DNA of 21,155 nucleotides from Anaerolineae bacterium CG2_30_58_95 (GTDB taxonomy: Bacteria > Chloroflexota > Anaerolineae > Anaerolineales > Villigracilaceae), in assembly GCA_001872165.1 (NCBI GenBank), contig MNXK01000041.1, positions 1 to 21,155 of the forward strand. Direction: 5' to 3'. Below the pieces are notes generated by a model. That model worked only from the letters and a program-made list of their open reading frames with translations. It searched no databases and was not told the DNA's origin. Shown here piece after piece: positions 1,458 through 14,719 of this stretch (positions are counted from its first letter, which is position 1; every line of letters begins with the position of its first letter). The translations under genes were made by a program, and so were the position numbers.

Positions 1458-2681
1458 ATGAAATTTGACCTGGTTTTCGAAGGCGGCGGCGCAAAAGGCA
1501 TGATCTTCGTCGGCGCGCTGCAAGAGTTCGAAGCGCGCGGCAACACGCACGGACGCCTGCTCGGCACCTCGGCCGGCGCGATTACGGCCACACTGCTCGC
1601 CGCCGGTTACGGTTCGCAGGAGATGCTGGAGGCGCTGGCCGAAAAGCAGGACGGGAAATCCGTCTTCACCAGCTTCATGGGCACGCCGGCCCCTTTCACG
1701 AAAGAGGAGATCCTTGACAGCGACATTCTCACGCTGCTGAAGAGCATTGACATCCCACTGATCCCGGAAGCCATCGAAGAGAAATTGGATGACAAACTGA
1801 TTGGATGGCTGGCCAAACAGCCCCGCTCCAGCCACCTGGTCTCGTTCGTGGAACGCGGCGGCTGGTACTCGGCGGACAACTTCATCCGTTGGCTGCAAAC
1901 GAAACTGGATAGCGGTAAATACAAGCGCAAACCGCGCCAGTTCAGCGGGATAACCCTCGAGCAGTTCTACGCCGCCACCCGGAAAGACCTGTCCCTGGTC
2001 GTCTCCGATACGACCGGTGAGAGCATGTTGGTGGTCAATCACCGCACGGCCCCGGAGTGTCCGCTGGTCTGGGCCGTGCGCATGTCCATGAGCATCCCGC
2101 TCCTGTGGCAGGAAGTCGTCTGGCAGAAGGAATGGGGACTCTACCTCGGCCAGGACATCACCGGTCACACCATCGTGGACGGCGGCCTGCTCTCGAATTT
2201 CCCGATCGAACTATTCCTCTCCAGCCTGGAAAACGTCACTGCGCTGATGGGCCCCAAAGGCGACGCCCCGGTGATGGGATTGCTGATTGACGAGACGCTG
2301 CCTGTCCCCGGCGCGGAACAGCCTGCCGCGCAAAAACCGTCCTCGGGCATTGGCGAGCTGCAAACCGTGCGGCGTATCTCGAACCTGGTCAACACCCTGC
2401 TCTCCGCCCACGATAAGATGGTCATGGACGCATTCGAGAAACTGGTGGTACACCTGCCCGCCCAGGGCTACGGCACGACCGAATTCGACATGAGCGACGA
2501 ACGGCGCGAACTGCTGGTGGCTGCCGGACAAAAGACGATGTCGAAATACCTCGACCAGCGCGCCATGGTCAGCTTCGCCGTGGTGGATGAAGCGGAAGAG
2601 GATCGGGCCGCCGAAACAGCCAACAAGATCGCGGCGCGTATACTGGGCAGAACGATCAACCAGAAATTGACCCCCGCTTGA
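1458..2681 (+). CDS. patatin-like phospholipase / acyl hydrolase
   Basis: A 407-residue patatin-family protein. The oxyanion-hole motif GGGAKG is at residues 9-14, the nucleophile elbow GTSAG at 36-40 (Ser38), and the catalytic-dyad Asp in VDGGLLSNFP (Asp241). These are all the residues a Ser-Asp dyad lipid acyl hydrolase needs, so the enzyme looks active. No signal peptide or membrane segment is evident at the N-terminus (MKFDLVFEGGG), which points to a cytoplasmic or peripheral membrane enzyme. The long segment between Ser and Asp (about 200 residues) and a C-terminal extension of about 160 residues are larger than in short bacterial patatins. AGGAGG precedes the ATG at good spacing. Substrate (phospholipid or other acyl ester) cannot be read from sequence. 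Confidence 0.92.
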   Translation: MKFDLVFEGGGAKGMIFVGALQEFEARGNTHGRLLGTSAGAITATLLAAGYGSQEMLEALAEKQDGKSVFTSFMGTPAPFTKEEILDSDILTLLKSIDIPLIPEAIEEKLDDKLIGWLAKQPRSSHLVSFVERGGWYSADNFIRWLQTKLDSGKYKRKPRQFSGITLEQFYAATRKDLSLVVSDTTGESMLVVNHRTAPECPLVWAVRMSMSIPLLWQEVVWQKEWGLYLGQDITGHTIVDGGLLSNFPIELFLSSLENVTALMGPKGDAPVMGLLIDETLPVPGAEQPAAQKPSSGIGELQTVRRISNLVNTLLSAHDKMVMDAFEKLVVHLPAQGYGTTEFDMSDERRELLVAAGQKTMSKYLDQRAMVSFAVVDEAEEDRAAETANKIAARILGRTINQKLTPA

Positions 2682-2693
2682 ATACTGATCGAA

Positions 2694-2712
2694 AAAGGTC
2701 TCGGAGACCTTT
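2694..2712. repeat. short perfect palindrome at the sirtuin breakpoint
   Basis: AAAGGTCTC, one base, GAGACCTTT: a 9-bp perfect stem. It lies 13 bases after the patatin stop codon and 12 bases from the point where homology of the minus-strand sirtuin remnant ends. It could act as a weak terminator for the patatin gene, although no T-tract follows. The AGGTCT/AGACCT core recurs in the hairpin at 21048-21080. Confidence 0.5.
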
Positions 2713-2723
2713 AGGGTCTGAGC

Positions 2724-3053
2724 TGCCCTCTGGTGCAACCCATCCACGTTCTGCGTGATTAGTGTAAATCGCGGGGCGCGGCGCGCCATCTCGGCCAGGG
2801 CGTAATGACCAGGATTTGGCTCGGCGCCGCGCACTTTTTCGCGGCGCATGGCATACCAATCCCAGACTAGCTTGGGATTCCTGCGGAAGGCCTCGGGCGT
2901 CGCTAAATCTTCAGGCTTGTACTGCGTCCATAAGCCAGTTTGAGCTTCGCGGAAGGTGCACAGGCCCGATTCCTGCGAGATGCCCGCGCCGGTCAACGCG
3001 GCGATGCGCTCCGAAGCACGTAGGAAGCGAACAAGTTCAGAGGGAAATTGCAT
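2724..3053 (-). pseudogene. truncated Sir2/CobB-type deacylase remnant
   Basis: The first 110 codons from the ATG at 3053 match the N-terminal half of an NAD-dependent protein deacylase. The NAD motif GAGISQESG is followed by TFREAQTGLW, and then TQNVDGLHQRA. The match stops right after NVDGLHQRA: the catalytic His-Gly, the zinc-binding cysteines and the C-terminal Rossmann part are absent. The frame stays open to 2211, but that portion is only the antisense of the patatin gene. A Pro normally found in the GIPTFR segment is Cys here. I read this as a gene truncated at its 3' end, perhaps at the palindrome at 2694-2712. It lies 107 bases downstream of the HigA-ImmA gene on the same strand. Confidence 0.82.
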
Positions 3054-3160: not shown

Positions 3161-4351
3161 TCAGTTTTCAGCGCTAAACAGTTTGCGGACGGTTTTGTGC
3201 CCAAGCAATTCGTCAAAGTTGTTGTAATTGTTCGCTTCCCAGCGCAGGCGTCCTGCCACAATTGCCGGGGAGATGCCTAATTTGTCAGCAAATGCCACAA
3301 TTCCTCTTTCGCTTATGATGTTATGTTTTTCTAGATTCCAGGTTTCTTCAGGGAGGAGCAAGCTGGCAGCAAGGTCGTTGGCTTCAATTTCCTGCGGAGT
3401 GCACGTCCGGGACGCGCCTTGCTCGGTATCGTCAAAGAATGCCACATTGCCGTTTTCCAGATGCAAGTAGATGTGCGCTAGTTCGTGTACCAACGTGAAC
3501 CAGAAGTTATCAAGGCGGTCATGGCGCAGGGTCATTCCAATGATGGGCCGTCCGGACGGAGATTTGAAACATGCGCCATCCAGGTAGGTTTTTGGCAGGT
3601 GGGCGAGAATGACAAATGCGATGCCGCGCTTCTGTAGCAGTTCTCTTGCCAGCACAGGTCCTTTTGACAGGTTACTTAGTTTCACCACATCGCGGATGAA
3701 CTCCTGCGTCAGGTTGCTGTGATCGTAAGGAGGCAGTCCCTGTTCGGATGCAATTTCCAGCACGCGGGCTTGCCAGGCTTCCATGGCACGCTCATCCAGT
3801 TGGCCTTCAGAGTTGCGACAGTAGACCCTTTGCGGTGCGTGCCCCTGAAAACTGGCAAACAGTTCCTCGAGCAGTTCCTCGGCGTATTGCTTGGCATCCT
3901 GTAACGTACCGTTGAATGACTTGAAGTAGCCGCGCTTGTACATTTCTTTGAAGGGAAAGTCACGGTGGCTGTATCTTGGTGCATCCAGGTTCCTGCCGGA
4001 TTCGCTCAACAGAACTTCAGCGGGAATATCCAGCCCAGCGTGCAGGGCACGAATCATCGCCAGGCTCAAGGGACGTTTTTTATTCAGCACTTCAGAAACT
4101 TTGCTCTGACTACCGATGTATTGTTCCAAATCCTTGCGCGTCAGCCCTTTCTGTTCCATGCGAAACTGGATGGCTGCTACCGGTTCGGGCAAGCCAATGG
4201 GGAAGGTCTCTTTCTCGTAGTTTTCGATGAGCACGGCAAACAGTTCCAGTTCTTCTTCCTCAGGTGTGCCGGGTTGGGCTTCCATCAAATTTTCGAGATG
4301 GGCCAGAGCCGACTGGTATTCGGCTTCGTTCTTGATGATTTTCGGCTTCAT
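3161..4351 (-). CDS. higA: HigA-type antitoxin fused to ImmA/IrrE metallopeptidase
   Basis: A 396-residue two-domain protein. Residues 55-116 form a HigA/COG5499-like XRE helix-turn-helix (LTRKDLEQYIGSQSKVSEVL, then PLSLAMIRALHAGLDIP). Residues about 215-370 form an ImmA/IrrE (DUF955) zinc peptidase with HELAH at 289-293 and a downstream acidic/hydrophobic motif (EIEANDLAASLLLP, 321-334) that supplies a further metal ligand. Its ATG shares one base with the stop codon of the upstream higB-like gene (TGATG), so translation is coupled. Stand-alone HigA is about 100-140 residues, so the protease domain is an addition. The HTH probably binds the operator-like repeats at 4652-4702. The peptidase could self-cleave or cleave a partner under stress; that role is inference. 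Confidence 0.9.
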   Translation of the reverse strand: MKPKIIKNEAEYQSALAHLENLMEAQPGTPEEEELELFAVLIENYEKETFPIGLPEPVAAIQFRMEQKGLTRKDLEQYIGSQSKVSEVLNKKRPLSLAMIRALHAGLDIPAEVLLSESGRNLDAPRYSHRDFPFKEMYKRGYFKSFNGTLQDAKQYAEELLEELFASFQGHAPQRVYCRNSEGQLDERAMEAWQARVLEIASEQGLPPYDHSNLTQEFIRDVVKLSNLSKGPVLARELLQKRGIAFVILAHLPKTYLDGACFKSPSGRPIIGMTLRHDRLDNFWFTLVHELAHIYLHLENGNVAFFDDTEQGASRTCTPQEIEANDLAASLLLPEETWNLEKHNIISERGIVAFADKLGISPAIVAGRLRWEANNYNNFDELLGHKTVRKLFSAEN

Positions 4352-4644
4352 CAGATTATCTCCGCGTTTATCCTGTTATATTCTTCGTGCGTGCCAACAA
4401 ACCGGATGTAGACGATTTCTGTGTTGTAGTGGATCTTTACGACCAACCGGTAATGCTTGCCTTTGATGTTGAATACCACCCGGTTCCCCAGCAGGATATC
4501 TGCGCTGCGATACCGGGCTTTGATGTCGACGGGGGATTTCCAATGGGCGTGCTCAGCTTCTTTTTCCCAGGCTTTCAGGGCATCTTCTACGTCTGGGGGT
4601 TCCATCCAACACGCAAGCAGTTTTTGTCTGGTGATAATATGCAT
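4351..4644 (-). CDS. higB: HigB-family mRNA interferase toxin
   Basis: A 97-residue protein of the HigB toxin family (PF09907-like). It starts MHIITRQKLL and has the typical central block ALKAWEKEAEHAHWKSP and the C-terminal core VVFNIKGKHYRLVVKIHY followed by VYIRFVGTHEEY. Members are ribosome-dependent or free ribonucleases of RelE-like fold that cut mRNA. The His in FVGTHEEY and the basic residues before it match the usual active-site area. The toxin gene precedes the antitoxin gene, the standard hig order, with a one-base stop/start overlap. No strong Shine-Dalgarno is visible before ATG 4644. Expression is probably controlled by the repeats just upstream. Confidence 0.92.
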   Translation of the reverse strand: MHIITRQKLLACWMEPPDVEDALKAWEKEAEHAHWKSPVDIKARYRSADILLGNRVVFNIKGKHYRLVVKIHYNTEIVYIRFVGTHEEYNRINAEII

Positions 4645-9932: not shown

Positions 9933-11078
9933 TCAGGGCGTCTCTGCTTTTCCTGTCCAAACTCTCCCCGCCTGGATGATGGTTCTATCCGGCACATCGG
10001 CCAGGATGATCGCCCCGTTGCCGATGCGCACGCCGGAGCCAATCCGAATACCAATCGCCGTCGTTACGCCCATCCCGACCAACGTCCGCTCGCCGACTTG
10101 GACGAGACCCGCCAGCAAGGCTCCCGGCGCGATGTGACTGTACACGCCGATCTCGCAATCGTGCGAGACCACCGCGCTGGTGTTGACCATGCAGCGCGGG
10201 TGCAGTACCGCCGACGAGCCGACATAGGCATTGGCAAAGACCTGCGCCCCGTCGCCAATGACCGCGCTCGGCTCGACGGTCGCGCTCGGATGCCTCAGAA
10301 CGGGAAACGAATAGCCATAGCTTTCCAGCAGCTCGAAAATCACGACGCGGATTCGAATATCGAGGATTCCGCCGACGCCATTCGCCGCCAGCCGTAAACC
10401 TTTTTCAGCAAGCACCGGCAAAATATCACGCGTGCCCAGCACTGGGAAACCCAATACCCGCGTCCCGGCCGGTATGCCATCATCCACGATGCCGGCGATG
10501 TGGTAGCCGCCCATCGCCAGGGCCATTTCCATCACGGATTTGGCGTGCCCGCCGCCGCCGTAGATCAGGATAGATTTCCCAGGGTCAATGCCCTCCAGCA
10601 CGGGTGCAGGGAGGCTGACTTTGCCAGCCACTTCGCGGATCACGGACTCGGTCACCAAACGGTCGGGAGGCAGCGCGGCCAGGTCAAGCCCCAAAGATTC
10701 GGCGAGGGCGCGCGCGGGCTTGGTAATACGCAAAGATGAAGGATGAAAGATGAAAGATGAAGGATGAAGAACGGAGGAAGAAGGATGAAGGGTGAAGGAT
10801 GAAGGATGAAATTCGGAAGGCTGAGGCAGAGGTTCGTCAACAGTGTCAGTGACGTAGGCCAGAATATCCCCGACGGAAAGGGTATCCCCTTCTTTGACGA
10901 ATATCCGTATAAAGCCCGTTTCTGGAGAAACTACATCAGAGGCGGCTTTGGTGGTTTCGAGGGTGAAAAGCAGCGCGCCTTTTTCGACGGTCTGGCCGTC
11001 TTCGACGTGGATGCCGACCAGCCGCGCCTCAGGCTCGTTGGCGTTCAGAAGGGGAACGAGGATTTCGGATTTGATCAT
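9933..11078 (-). CDS. hybrid E2-like protein: lipoyl domain + E1/E3-binding domain + NeuD/PglD-type acyltransferase
   Basis: A 381-residue fusion. Residues 1-80 form a lipoyl domain (VGIHVEDGQTVEKGALLFTL, then ETTKAASD with the lipoylated Lys44). Residues 90-116 are a linker of HPSSF-type repeats encoded by heptamer DNA repeats. Residues 117-150 form a peripheral subunit-binding domain (ITKPARALAESLGLDLAAL). Residues 168-381 form a NeuD/PglD-type enzyme: Rossmann-like start IYGGGGHAKSV, then a left-handed beta-helix with the catalytic-type His306 in VVSHDCEIG and HIAPGALLAG. The normal E2 catalytic domain is missing. Genes for E1-beta and E1-alpha lie directly upstream on the same strand. I infer that E1 loads an acyl group on lipoyl-Lys44 and the beta-helix domain passes it to an amine or hydroxyl, probably of a nucleotide sugar. 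Confidence 0.88.
   Translation of the reverse strand: MIKSEILVPLLNANEPEARLVGIHVEDGQTVEKGALLFTLETTKAASDVVSPETGFIRIFVKEGDTLSVGDILAYVTDTVDEPLPQPSEFHPSSFTLHPSSSVLHPSSFIFHPSSLRITKPARALAESLGLDLAALPPDRLVTESVIREVAGKVSLPAPVLEGIDPGKSILIYGGGGHAKSVMEMALAMGGYHIAGIVDDGIPAGTRVLGFPVLGTRDILPVLAEKGLRLAANGVGGILDIRIRVVIFELLESYGYSFPVLRHPSATVEPSAVIGDGAQVFANAYVGSSAVLHPRCMVNTSAVVSHDCEIGVYSHIAPGALLAGLVQVGERTLVGMGVTTAIGIRIGSGVRIGNGAIILADVPDRTIIQAGRVWTGKAETP
10732..10811. repeat. heptamer tandem repeat inside the lipoyl-NeuD gene
   Basis: About eleven degenerate copies of GATGAAG/GATGAAA (plus strand) with one AACGGAG and one GAAGAAG variant. It lies wholly within the coding sequence and encodes the HPSSF-like interdomain linker (residues about 90-116). 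The block GATGAAGAACGGA is shared with the array at 12206-12310. Confidence 0.85.
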
Positions 11079-11083
11079 AGAGG

Positions 11084-11208
11084 TTGAAAGTTGAAGGTCT
11101 AATGTCGAACGTCAAATGTTCCCCGCTTCACGTTTCACGCTTCAGGTTTGACGTTTGATCTTTGACGTTTGACGTTTTATGCTCCACGCTTCACACTTCA
11201 CACAATTC
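11084..11208. repeat. intergenic heptamer-period repeat array
   Basis: The 112-base gap between E1-beta and the lipoyl-NeuD gene is almost wholly degenerate heptamers of the type CGTTTGA, CGTTTCA, CGCTTCA and CACTTCA. The array enters the E1-beta frame and provides its last codons and TGA stop (ELCEV-stop). No Shine-Dalgarno for the downstream gene is visible in it. Confidence 0.7.
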
Positions 11209-12204
11209 AAGAGCTGCATGGATGATCGTCTCAACGGATGGCAGGATGGCGTCTTCCAGTGGCTTGGAATTGGCAATCGGCAAATCGAGCGCGGCGACGC
11301 GGTGGAAATGGCAACGACTGAAGTCGTTACTACGTTCCGCGAGGCGCGCCAGGATTTCCGCGCCCCAGCCGAGGGTCAGGCCGCCTTCTTCGACGGTCAG
11401 CAGGCGATGAGTGCGGGCAAGCGAATCGAGCAGCGGGTCGAGCGCGAAGGGACTAAGCTGCGAAAAGAGCACGATCTCGCAGAATATCTCGCGCTCCATC
11501 AACAGCTCGAGCGCTGCCTGGCGGGCAAGCTCGAAGTTGTAGCCGTAGCAGGCGAGGGTAAGGTGAGATTTTACGGCGTGATTCGTAAAACGTAAAACGT
11601 AACTCGTAAAGGGCGCGCCAAAGGGTTGGATTTCGTAATCCACAAGATCTCCTTTGTCTGCCTCGAGCAGCGGACGGGTGTAGAGCAATTTGTGCTCGAC
11701 GAACAACACCGGGTCGTCGTCGGCGATGGCGGCCTCCAGCAGTTGGCCGGGATCACCGAGGGTGTTGGGCGCGACGACGTGCAGGCCCGGCACGCCCAGA
11801 AACATCTTTTCGAGCGATTGGCTGTGGGTCGGGCCGTAGCCGCGCCGCCCACCCATCGGCGTGCGGACGACGAGCGGCACGCGCACCTGGTCATTGTACA
11901 TCCAGCGGAATTTGGCCGCGTGGTTGACGATCTGATCGGCAATCAGGGTCACGAAATCGCCAAACATGATCTCGGCTACCGGGCGCAGACCGCGCAAGGC
12001 CATGCCGGAAGCCACGCCGACGATGGCCGCCTCGGAAATGGGCGTGGTCAGGACGCGCTCGGGGAACGCCGTGCTCAGGCCGCGCGTGACTTTAAATGCG
12101 CCGCCGTAGGGATCGAGAATATCCTCCCCAAGCAGATACACCCGCTCATCAGTATGCATGGCTTTGTGGAGGGAGGTGTTGAGGGATTCGAGAACGGTGG
12201 ACAT
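11191..12204 (-). CDS. 2-oxoacid dehydrogenase E1 component, beta subunit
   Basis: A 337-residue transketolase-type E1-beta. Typical blocks are VYLLGEDILDPYGGAFKVT, TPISEAAIVGVASGMALRG (Glu58 is the conserved cofactor-activating Glu), MFGDFVTLIADQIVNHAAK and RTPMGGRRGYGPTHSQS, followed by a C-terminal transketolase domain. It pairs with the E1-alpha gene upstream to decarboxylate a 2-oxo acid with thiamine diphosphate and acylate a lipoyl group. Around residues 199-210 (FTSYVLRFTNHA) the usual short linker between domains is lengthened by codons from a heptamer repeat at 11581-11610. The last five residues and the stop also come from repeat DNA. The start ATG follows the repeat at 12206 without an obvious ribosome binding site. 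The 2-oxo acid (pyruvate, branched-chain or other) is not determinable. Confidence 0.93.
   Translation of the reverse strand: MSTVLESLNTSLHKAMHTDERVYLLGEDILDPYGGAFKVTRGLSTAFPERVLTTPISEAAIVGVASGMALRGLRPVAEIMFGDFVTLIADQIVNHAAKFRWMYNDQVRVPLVVRTPMGGRRGYGPTHSQSLEKMFLGVPGLHVVAPNTLGDPGQLLEAAIADDDPVLFVEHKLLYTRPLLEADKGDLVDYEIQPFGAPFTSYVLRFTNHAVKSHLTLACYGYNFELARQAALELLMEREIFCEIVLFSQLSPFALDPLLDSLARTHRLLTVEEGGLTLGWGAEILARLAERSNDFSRCHFHRVAALDLPIANSKPLEDAILPSVETIIHAALELCEV
11581..11610. repeat. heptamer repeat inserted in frame in E1-beta
   Basis: Four heptamers of the form CGTAAAA/ACGTAAC lie inside the E1-beta coding sequence and are translated as FTSYVLRFTN in the interdomain segment. The unit differs from the other arrays in the operon but the 7-base period is the same. 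Confidence 0.65.
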
Positions 12205-12205
12205 T

Positions 12206-12310
12206 CTAAAGATGAAGGATGAGAGATGAGAGATGAAGAACGGAAGATGAAAGATGAAGAATGGAGGATGACAAAGTTTCAGCTTTCATCTTTCATCTCT
12301 CATCTTTCAG
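12206..12310. repeat. heptamer array between E1-alpha and E1-beta, partly self-complementary
   Basis: Degenerate GATGAAG/GATGAGA heptamers (12211-12275) are followed by their inverted form CTTTCAT/CTCTCAT (12287-12310), so the transcript can fold into a long imperfect hairpin. The array runs into the E1-alpha frame and supplies the end of the protein (NLKDER) and its TGA. Confidence 0.8.
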
Positions 12311-13207
12311 ATTTGGCAACGGATCGGCTTCGGCGCGGGCGAAGGCGTCGGCGATGGCGGCGGCGACCTCGGATTCAGCGCGGGCGCGCTCGGCGTCAGT
12401 CAGGCGTGGGGCGTGGATCAGCAGCGGGTCTTTCTCCCTAGCGCGGGCGATCTCGGCCGGATCGCGCACGTCGTCGCCTTTGCTGTGGGCGGAGAAACGG
12501 TACGTGTGCAGGATCAGGCCCACGGGTCGTCCGTTCCGGCGGACGCTTCCTACCGCCTCCAACGCGGCAGCCTGGACTTCCAGCACATCGGTGGAATCCC
12601 GTTCCAGGGTCGTGATCCCAAAAGCAGAAAACCGTCCCGTGATCGTGCCAGCGACGGCCAGCTCGATGGGCGTGGTCTGGGCGTAATGGTTGTTTTCCAC
12701 CACGAAGAGGATCGGCAGGCGCCAAAGGGAAGCGATGTTCAGGCTTTCGTAGAGCGCGCCTTCGCCGAGCGTGCCGTCGCCCAGGAAGGTGAGGGCGATC
12801 TTGCCTGTTTTGTTCACCTTTTCGGCCAGCGCCATACCAGTCGCCACCGGCAGGATGCCGCCCTGAATCCCGTTGGAATAGAAGTTGCGCCAGTGGATGT
12901 GCTGGCTGCCGCCGCGCCCGCCGACCAGACCGGTGGCCTTGCCCATCAACTCGGCGGCCAGGCGATAAGGATCGCTCCCCTCCGGGGACGATGCGCCATA
13001 AGCCAGGAAGTGGCCGTGGCAGCGGTGGTTGCTAAAGACCACGTCGCCGGGGTCGGTGACGGAGAAAATTCCAGCCGCATTGGCTTCCTGCCCGATGTAG
13101 GCATGGGTGGTGCCGACCAGCTTGCCGGTCGAAAACTCGGCCAGCAGACGTTCCTCGAAGCGGCGGATGAGCAGCATGGTGCGGAAGAGGGCATAATTGT
13201 CGGGCAT
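12293..13207 (-). CDS. 2-oxoacid dehydrogenase E1 component, alpha subunit
   Basis: A 304-residue E1-alpha. It starts MPDNYALFRTMLLIRRFEER and has THAYIGQEANAAG, HRCHGHFLAYG, GGRGGSQH and the thiamine diphosphate motif GDG (143-145) with NN (172-173), and near the C-terminus YRFSAHSKGDDVRDP, equivalent to the phosphorylation-loop region of other E1s. The order E1-alpha, E1-beta, lipoyl protein resembles acetoin and pyruvate dehydrogenase operons, but the third gene is a NeuD hybrid and no E3 is present. The frame is open far upstream, but beyond 13207 it only mirrors the opposite-strand protease gene. A TATAAT box nine bases before this ATG supports the start and suggests a leaderless transcript. 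Confidence 0.93.
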   Translation of the reverse strand: MPDNYALFRTMLLIRRFEERLLAEFSTGKLVGTTHAYIGQEANAAGIFSVTDPGDVVFSNHRCHGHFLAYGASSPEGSDPYRLAAELMGKATGLVGGRGGSQHIHWRNFYSNGIQGGILPVATGMALAEKVNKTGKIALTFLGDGTLGEGALYESLNIASLWRLPILFVVENNHYAQTTPIELAVAGTITGRFSAFGITTLERDSTDVLEVQAAALEAVGSVRRNGRPVGLILHTYRFSAHSKGDDVRDPAEIARAREKDPLLIHAPRLTDAERARAESEVAAAIADAFARAEADPLPNLKDER

Positions 13208-13325: not shown

Positions 13326-13428
13326 CCAAAGTCGGAGACTTTGGACTCCGTTTGTTGAAAGCAGCGTAATCCAAAGTCGGAGACTTTGGACTCCGTTTCC
13401 GTTTGTCGGAGACTTTGGACTCCGTTTG
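13326..13428. repeat. three direct copies of a hairpin-forming repeat
   Basis: Copies at 13326-13354, 13371-13398 and 13405-13428 share the core GTCGGAGACTTTGGACTCCG. In the first two, CCAAAGT and ACTTTGG form a 7-bp stem around CGGAG. The third copy occupies the -35 region of the promoter of the next gene. Confidence 0.85.
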
Positions 13429-13432
13429 TTGT

Positions 13433-13438
13433 TATAAT
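13433..13438 (+). promoter_or_regulatory. -10 box for a leaderless protease mRNA
   Basis: A perfect TATAAT ends six bases (all C) before the ATG at 13445. There is no room for a ribosome binding site. No recognisable -35; that position is filled by the third direct-repeat copy. Confidence 0.6.
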
Positions 13439-13444
13439 CCCCCC

Positions 13445-14719
13445 ATGTTCTTCCGCACCCTGCGCGGCATCGAGATCGCCTGCTATGCCATCTTTTTCGC
13501 CCTTTTGCTCGGCAGCAGCACCCTGCTCGCCCCCAGCAACCCAACCGAGCGTGTGCGCACCTTCACCCGTCCAGTCGAATTCGATTACTTCGACTGGACG
13601 CTGAATGCCTTCGGCGTCAAATTCGCCCAGGGCGCGCTCGGTACGCCGTATTACTTCGCTGAGGACGCTCGCCACAGCCTCGTGGCAGACGCCCTGGAGT
13701 TGAGCGGGAAGATCATGCAGGATGAATACCAACTGCAAATGATCTATACCGATCCGCAGGTCGAGGATCCCGAATCCGCCTCGGTCGAGCTGAGGGCGGA
13801 GTTGAGCCAGCTCAAGAGTCGCCAGGCCCAACTGATGCCCATCTCCGAGGCTTTCCTGCAGGAACAGGTCGGCGAGGTGGTGGACGAGCTGGGCCTGACG
13901 ACCGGCGGCCAACCCATCCCGCCCATCCTGTTCCACATCACGCCCCTGCCCTACGACTTGATCGTCTCGCGGCGCGACAAGATCCAATCCGAGACCAGCA
14001 TCTCGCTGCTCCCCAACCTCTCCGTAGACCAGCAGGCCGCCCTGGAAGCGCGCGTGGACAAGGGGCTGAACGTCTCCTCGCTGGTCGTGCCGGTGGGCGG
14101 GATCGGCTCGTACCCGACCATGGTCGAGCACACCACCGACCTGAACTGGCTGACCGACACCATCGCTCACGAGTGGATCCACAACTGGCTGACCCTGCGT
14201 CCACTGGGGATGAACTACGATAGCAGCGCTGAACTGCGCACCATGAACGAGACGACCGCCTCCATCGCCGGACACGAGATCGGCGCGCTCGTCCTGCAGC
14301 GGTACTACCCCGAACTGACCCAGGCCCTCCTGCCCCCGGCCATCTTGATAAACCTGCCATTGGGCCCCATTGACCCGGACGACTTACGCAAGCCTTTCGA
14401 CTTCCGCGCCGAGATGCACACCACGCGCGTCCACGCCGACGAGCTGCTGGCCGAGGGCAAGGTCGCCGAAGCCGAGGCTTACATGGAGCAGCGCCGTCAG
14501 CTCTTTTGGGACAATGGCTATGCCATCCGCAAGCTCAACCAGGCTTTTTTTGCATTCTATGGGGCTTATGCGGACGTTCCCGGCGGCGCGGCGGGCGAAG
14601 ACCCGGTCGGCCCGGCGGTGCGCCAACTGCGCGCCCAAAGCGCCTCGCTGGGCGATTTCCTGCGCCGCATCGCACAGATGAGCTCGTTCCAGCAGTTGCA
14701 GGAGGCGGTGGCCAATTGA
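13445..14719 (+). CDS. membrane-anchored HEXXH zinc metalloprotease-like protein
   Basis: A 424-residue protein with one N-terminal membrane segment (IACYAIFFALLLGSSTLL, residues 10-27), so the catalytic part should face outside. The zinc motif is HEWIH (242-246) in LTDTIAHEWIHNWLTL, and the third ligand is probably Glu269 in MNETTASIAGHEIG, a gluzincin-like arrangement. A Tyr/Asp-rich helical region and an acidic C-terminal tail follow. I do not recognise a named family. The frame is open upstream of 13445, but the TATAAT box at 13433-13438 makes the ATG at 13445 the probable start. The stop TGA lies at the first unit of the GAGTTAG repeat array. It lies beside a thiol/prolyl foldase and a PrsW homologue, which suggests envelope protein turnover. 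Confidence 0.78.
   Translation: MFFRTLRGIEIACYAIFFALLLGSSTLLAPSNPTERVRTFTRPVEFDYFDWTLNAFGVKFAQGALGTPYYFAEDARHSLVADALELSGKIMQDEYQLQMIYTDPQVEDPESASVELRAELSQLKSRQAQLMPISEAFLQEQVGEVVDELGLTTGGQPIPPILFHITPLPYDLIVSRRDKIQSETSISLLPNLSVDQQAALEARVDKGLNVSSLVVPVGGIGSYPTMVEHTTDLNWLTDTIAHEWIHNWLTLRPLGMNYDSSAELRTMNETTASIAGHEIGALVLQRYYPELTQALLPPAILINLPLGPIDPDDLRKPFDFRAEMHTTRVHADELLAEGKVAEAEAYMEQRRQLFWDNGYAIRKLNQAFFAFYGAYADVPGGAAGEDPVGPAVRQLRAQSASLGDFLRRIAQMSSFQQLQEAVAN

Follow-up and report, generated by a model that had tools for sequence, protein, structure and literature searches.

The stretch of DNA analyzed here (the window; 21,155 nucleotides, contig MNXK01000041.1 of assembly GCA_001872165.1, Anaerolineae bacterium CG2_30_58_95) carries on its minus strand a three-gene operon in which the E1 genes of a 2-oxo acid dehydrogenase are joined by a hybrid lipoyl/NeuD acyltransferase gene. 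The operon encodes (i) E1-alpha (12293..13207, 304 amino acids), assigned by the Pfam family E1_dh, PDB matches, and a tree, (ii) E1-beta (11191..12204, 337 amino acids), assigned by Transket_pyr and Transketolase_C, PDB matches, and trees, and (iii) the hybrid (9933..11078, 381 amino acids), which is built of a lipoyl domain, a region resembling the peripheral subunit-binding domain (PSBD), and a NeuD domain, as delineated by its open reading frame (ORF), Pfam, NCBIfam, and an AlphaFold2 (AF2) model. The E1-alpha start is placed at the ATG at 13207; the ORF is open to 14275, which would overlap a divergent ORF at 13403-14719. ORFs, Pfam, and the NeuD model TIGR03570 agree on this set, with the hybrid in a single frame, as the first-pass annotation had it. 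The replacement of the E2 catalytic domain is likewise confirmed, PF00198 having no match in the hybrid by Pfam, as is the lack of an E3 gene in the window; the sole match of the genome to the E3 model at 1e-20 is on another contig (C204).

Domain anatomy of the hybrid protein

The lipoyl domain spans residues 1-80 (10839..11078, minus strand, like all features of the hybrid), has the N-terminal loop PLLNANEPEA, and is recognized by conservation and by a Biotin_lipoyl match at residues 17-75 (E 1.8e-10). Its predicted lipoylation site is Lys44 (codon 10947..10949) in the motif ETTK. Of the 121 rows aligned (the query and the 120 best of 1139 homologues), 120 have a lysine here; the remaining one is a gap contributed by a 266-residue protein (P0087) without that part. 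A flexible linker of low-complexity HPSSF repeats follows at residues 86-115 (10734..10823); it is variable among homologues, and residues 91-113 have a predicted local distance difference test score (pLDDT) below 50 in a model whose mean is 87.5. The DNA of the linker resembles a simple repeat that is also found between the E1 genes (12204-12310), and the linker portion has eight more match rows, some overlapping, on five other contigs of the genome. An intergenic repeat may have grown inside a protein linker.

Residues 116-152 (10623..10733) likely form a PSBD, but a divergent one, as judged from sequence comparison. Compared by hhalign with eight canonical PSBDs, the region reaches a probability of 88% in local mode (E 2.9e-6, for a single comparison) and 53% in global mode. 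The AF2 model has two short helices there (120-128 and 144-152), and Pfam E3_binding has no match to the hybrid even at E 10. The loop of this region is four residues shorter than in canonical PSBDs.

The NeuD/PglD acyltransferase domain occupies residues 166-381 (9936..10583) and consists of a Rossmann-like part and a left-handed beta-helix. It matches PglD_N at 170-220, Hexapep, and TIGR03570 (167 bits against a cut-off of 160.8). Its closest structures are the amino-sugar N-acetyltransferases PerB, PglB, VioB, and PglD, which act on 4-amino sugars (for some of them by the titles of the structures). His306 (codon 10161..10163), the predicted catalytic base, aligns with His141 of PerB, which is changed to asparagine in structure 4eaa (H141N), and is a histidine in 121 of 121 rows. 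The structure matches (VIA) mostly span residues 166-381 and barely sample the lipoyl arm; they include, by title, complexes of LpxD with acyl carrier protein (ACP) (4ihf-4ihh), from which it follows that the left-handed beta-helix fold can accept an acyl group from a protein-borne arm.

Recurrence and linkage to E1

The hybrid has 1139 homologues at E ≤ 1e-3, and among the 120 listed all but P0087 carry lipoyl and PglD_N domains in precomputed Pfam assignments. A set of 150 Anaerolineae genomes (completeness of at least 85% requested, the window's genome included) holds two full-length hybrids, both from the window's family. Within 201 Anaerolineales genomes, 86 match at 1e-60, and these were sorted by hand into 75 full-length, three cut short, and eight NeuD only. 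The hybrids fall into two clades. That of the window comprises six genomes (574-657 bits); the deeper one, with 69 genomes, scores 339-419 bits, and its proteins, in the rows compared, are about 40-47% identical to the window's hybrid. In both clades, every full-length locus row shown retains Lys44, the PSBD-like segment, and the catalytic-motif SH; one row (L131) has ENTK in place of ETTK, and three carry E or N instead of the D that follows SH.

Two sets of loci were used for gene order: 33 genome-contig loci and 31 full-length order loci, fetched out of 75, which share five contigs (L092-L096) and total 59. A tblastn search places E1-beta upstream, in the same orientation, in 31 of the 33, the exceptions being a contig with only 235 bases upstream (L013) and one with 4.5 kb upstream that lacks E1 (L031), and in all 31 of the second set, at gaps of 7-1511 bases; E1-alpha is present in 29 of these 31. 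Because the fusion is full-length in 75 of 201 genomes and E1-beta is upstream in 31 of 31 fetched loci, an assembly artefact, which the first-pass annotation had allowed for, is ruled out, and the fusion beside E1 genes is established as a recurrent feature.

The eight NeuD-only loci (L112-L119) have no E1 nearby. Among genomes lacking a full-length hybrid, 22 were chosen for comparison: their best E1-beta matches reach 32-45% identity, four of the 22 have none, and in G248, G025, G161, and G204 such matches adjoin PF00198 E2 genes. For this reason the hybrid operon, judged by gene content, has a dedicated E1. Hybrid-type E1-beta rows lie on one side of a branch with Shimodaira–Hasegawa-like approximate likelihood ratio (SH-aLRT) support of 100. 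Of 20 chosen hybrid genomes, 19 encode LipA and all have an E3-model match, 17 over the cut-off.

Viral contigs yielded no hybrid, and of the 48 plasmid records matched none covers 80% of it; the 30 listed align to the NeuD part and start no earlier than residue 139. A viral fold library holds NeuD-like and lipoyl-like matches, but separately. Several loci depart from the usual arrangement. Sixteen genome-contig loci (e.g., L020:9256-9927) have, between E1-beta and the hybrid, an opposite-strand gene of one cluster, with DUF4013 in the scanned member. One genome seemingly has two hybrids (L031, JACQYE010000192.1; L040, JACQYE010000016.1), of which the L040 copy ends at a contig edge. A NeuD with a long N-terminal stretch and no lipoyl domain by Pfam (L118:9307-10416) is either a decayed hybrid or has a wrong start.

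Affiliation of the E1 pair

The E1 pair groups with RenH and like E1s, one set of which lies in a non-ribosomal peptide synthetase (NRPS) cluster, not with pyruvate dehydrogenase (PDH). NRPS-type and outgroup E1s were drawn from 11 fetched plasmid records out of 629. The best plasmid match is RenH (48.8%), from a sponge symbiont that takes its name from renieramycin, an NRPS product, followed by E1s of Streptantibioticus, Nonomuraea, and Streptomyces (47%); acetoin- and PDH-type E1s reach at most 44%. The Streptomyces NBC_01136 locus reads condensation-domain protein, MFS transporter, MbtH, ACP, E1-alpha, E1-beta, and lipoyl/E2; the Streptantibioticus and Nonomuraea loci are unannotated and contain E1-alpha, E1-beta, and lipoyl/E2 frames.

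A tree of E1-alpha plus E1-beta separates 24 hybrid-type and four NRPS-type rows from 19 PDH/acetoin-type rows, with the split supported at 100/100. Mean identity of the hybrid type is 43.1% (E1-alpha) and 40.9% (E1-beta) to the NRPS type versus 35.8% and 36.6% to the PDH/acetoin type. Positions exclusive to the hybrid and NRPS types number 24 (10 in E1-alpha, 14 in E1-beta), against five exclusive to the hybrid and PDH/acetoin types (4 and 1) and one exclusive to the NRPS and PDH/acetoin types (0 and 1). Hybrid and NRPS-type rows have in common GT[TV]H, S[NS]HR or T[N]HR with HGH, HSKGDD, and GG.RGYGPTHS; HSKGDD, GT[TV]H, and RGYGPTHS occur in none of the 19 PDH/acetoin-type rows. The likeness extends to the arm, where NRPS-type E2s and the hybrid have the loop L[NS].N[DE] and a short PSBD loop in common; the lipoyl motif is ETSK in NRPS-type E2s, ETTK in the hybrid, and ETDK in PDH-type E2s.

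According to PMC6335953, QncN (AFJ11257), QncL (AFJ11255), and QncM specify a C2 glycolicacyl unit, for which a ketose phosphate is the proposed source in the case of SclQ1-4; SclQ2 and SclQ3 are 305 and 338 amino acids long, against 304 and 337 here. A glycolyl donor is thus favored over an acetyl donor, as the E1 pair groups with the RenH/Streptomyces type and the published relatives QncN/QncL make a glycolyl unit. Several points weigh against this assignment: QncN/QncL are likened by description, the sequences actually compared being RenH/RenI, Streptomyces NBC_01136, and like loci; the NRPS-type side comprises four rows only, with RenH on a long branch and an ACP/NRPS context annotated for one; GGSQH, common to hybrid and NRPS types, is also found in three acetoin-type E1s, and ETTK in one acetoin-type E2; and a whole-arm hidden Markov model scores NRPS-type E2s at 45.8-58.1 bits and canonical ones at 38.9-55.9, with no separation.

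In one alternative, a PDH-like E1 would decarboxylate pyruvate and acetylate the arm, and NeuD would then form an N-acetyl sugar without CoA (coenzyme A). The closest solved E1-alpha is indeed human PDH, the NeuD relatives with structures are N-acetyltransferases, and the PDH E1 models do match, albeit under cut-off (TIGR03182, 247.3 against 393.85; TIGR03181, 144.4 against 411.35). Those sub-threshold scores, the siding of the E1 pair with the NRPS type in both tree and signature positions, and the reading GTTH for the PDH motif GF[ML]H make acetyl transfer unlikely, and the donor in the first-pass annotation is probably wrong.

A related arrangement was seen on a Thermus plasmid (L185:2986-5167) and in L180, where both E1 subunit genes and one for a separate lipoyl protein of ~80 amino acids, annotated as hypothetical in L180, adjoin a TRAP transporter in a stretch without E2.

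Gene neighborhood and the acceptor

Of the 69 deeper-clade loci, 26 were fetched: a PglC-like gene (Bac_transf) lies upstream in 17 of them, 12 have a DegT aminotransferase gene no more than 6 kb downstream in the same orientation, and 22 have one or both. Two NeuD-only loci (L112, L113) have the same cassette, PglC-like–NeuD–DegT, without E1 and arm. Anaerolineales thus hold one sugar cassette both with and without the lipoyl machine, and since it adjoins the hybrid in the deeper clade and also occurs with a plain NeuD, a role in amino-sugar acylation is supported. Hybrid and DegT co-occur in 56 of 190 genomes, with 19 having the hybrid only, 31 DegT only, and 84 neither (Fisher P 8e-11, kinship ignored; 11 of the 201 genomes, with partial or NeuD-only matches, were set aside).

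The plain NeuDs of L112 and L113 also lend some weight to the possibility that the arm has lost its acyl-carrying role and become structural or regulatory, with NeuD drawing on acetyl-CoA like PglD and the link to E1 incidental. They have the hybrid's C-terminal motif, and their occurrence suggests, from gene content, that the NeuD domain can work without the arm. Such a loss of role is nevertheless quite improbable, given that both clades retain Lys44 and the active-site motifs of E1, that the E1 linkage is kept across loci, and that no hybrid-type E1 was found in the 22 hybrid-less genomes searched. The C-terminal motif itself, AG..W where other NeuDs presumably end in GvPAk, was considered as a sign of lost CoA binding and rejected; being common to plain NeuDs of the order, it is uninformative on the arm. 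On whether fusion occurred once or several times, the NeuD tree is poorly resolved, with plain rows nesting among hybrids (five changes, one forced).

Several observations count against the amino-sugar reading, above all in the window's own clade. PglC and DegT are absent beside the operon in L092-L096, and among the 33 genome-contig loci PglC occurs only at L039, which the E1-beta tree places with the deeper clade. The cassette of the window's clade is dispersed: DegT orthologues (65-70% identical) lie close to a prolyl-tRNA synthetase gene in three genomes, G339 as well as G080 and G131, which lack the hybrid, and lie elsewhere in G144 and G322, PglC-like genes are elsewhere again, and the stretches fetched around these DegT orthologues contain no NeuD. 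DegT is missing at E ≤ 1e-100 from 19 of the 75 hybrid genomes (including G000, G305, and G342), and in G342 even at 1e-40. The DegT neighbors of the deeper clade match PseC and LegC models best, yet under cut-offs, and because both they and the sugar-transferase neighbors fall under the NCBIfam cut-offs of every named enzyme, the sugar is not named here. The chief finding that counts against a plain sugar role in the window's clade is the presence of malate dehydrogenase and citrate synthase genes upstream in 13 of 34 loci (the 33 and the window), 12 of which also have a TrxR-like gene with a CATC motif. G080 and G131, both of the window's family, have a DegT orthologue and no hybrid or NeuD match at 1e-30.

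The citrate synthase and malate dehydrogenase neighbors fit a hybrid that is a true E2, in which NeuD, as a non-homologous replacement of the E2 core, would move the acyl group from lipoyl to CoA and feed either metabolism or a sugar. Several NeuD-family structures were solved, by title, with CoA or acetyl-CoA, and 10 of the 75 hybrid genomes have no PF00198 E2 by hand count (e.g., G342, G169, and G235, at 93-97% completeness). PF00198 is matched in the other 65, however, two of them weakly (G305, G334), and this, together with the sugar cassette of the deeper clade, weakens the central-metabolism version. Other genes, some on the opposite strand, also lie between citrate synthase and E1-alpha, and the window itself has neither neighbor. 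A true E2 is accordingly rather improbable, slightly more so than acetyl transfer.

Proposed mechanism

In the preferred reading, E1-alpha and E1-beta would together be a dedicated thiamine-diphosphate enzyme like QncN/QncL, drawing two carbons from a ketose phosphate (or from hydroxypyruvate) and using them to acylate the lipoyl group predicted on Lys44, which would give glycolyl-dihydrolipoyl. The flexible arm would bring the glycolyl group to the left-handed beta-helix of the NeuD domain, where, with His306 as base, the 4-amino group of a sugar nucleotide would attack the thioester to yield an N-glycolyl amino sugar. Such a transfer would need neither CoA nor O2, and the dihydrolipoyl arm would be reoxidized by a general E3 encoded elsewhere. 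The window's clade would presumably work as the deeper clade does.

This whole route, from ketose phosphate or hydroxypyruvate through glycolyl-lipoyl-Lys44 and NeuD to an N-glycolyl amino sugar, has a probability of about 50%. The interpretation in the first-pass annotation is thereby partly retained: the amino-sugar acylation it proposed has a fitting context in the deeper clade, while its donor is probably wrong.

Relation to known systems

Lipoyl arms are known to pass their acyl groups on to CoA and, in a small number of antibiotic pathways, to ACP. LpxA and LpxD are left-handed beta-helix transferases that take their acyl group from ACP, and the N-glycolyl routes through the hydroxylases CMAH and NamH need oxygen. 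The LpxA/LpxD carrier is a separate ACP, whereas that of the hybrid is a lipoyl arm on the same chain.

The hybrid set resembles RenH/RenI and Streptomyces NBC_01136 in its E1 signature positions, arm loop, and short PSBD-like region; RenH, however, is one E1-alpha–E1-beta chain, and the two are separate in the hybrid operon. The arm of the Qnc/Scl type ends in an E2 (2-oxoacid_dh) catalytic domain that passes the acyl group to ACP, and the hybrid arm ends in NeuD, so that by analogy the hybrid would work like a QncN/QncL module with its last domain exchanged. With NeuD, PglD, PerB, and VioB it has in common the domain, the catalytic histidine position, and, in the deeper clade, PglC-like and DegT partners, but the PDB chains of that family have no lipoyl arm. 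With pyruvate and other 2-oxo acid dehydrogenase complexes it has in common E1-alpha/E1-beta, a lipoyl domain, a PSBD-like region, and a genome-encoded E3. It differs from them in that its E1 falls outside the PDH/acetoin side of the tree and in lacking the E2 catalytic domain, for which reason it is not an E2 family member.

Searches of the open PubMed Central (PMC) library, judged by title and abstract beginning, gave no title on a lipoyl-NeuD protein or on lipoyl-fed sugar acylation and no paper on RenH. In PMC4875605, "lipoylate" means fatty acylation, and N-glycolyl is among the abbreviations of PMC6120980; PMC2663715 gave none of the residue names sought.

Other genes of the window

A Sir2 gene at 2211-3053 (minus strand) looks truncated, as it matches the first 100 of 180 model positions only and continues antisense to the neighboring ORF. 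At 3161-4644 (minus strand), a HigB-type toxin gene adjoins an antitoxin-like gene with helix-turn-helix and IrrE-peptidase parts.

Biological implications

The locus may, at somewhat less than even odds, represent an O2- and CoA-independent N-glycolylation, a natural domain swap that re-addresses a ketose-derived glycolyl-lipoyl module from ACP to a sugar. If so, transfer from a lipoyl arm to a left-handed beta-helix enzyme would be a third outlet for such arms and would supply glycan biosynthesis with a new acyl donor, and anaerobes would gain a route to N-glycolyl sugars. It would also mean that E1 and arm can remain coupled when a different fold replaces the E2 core. Many Anaerolineales have this three-gene machine, which probably transfers glycolyl to an amino sugar without CoA and would put the lipoyl arm to a new use.

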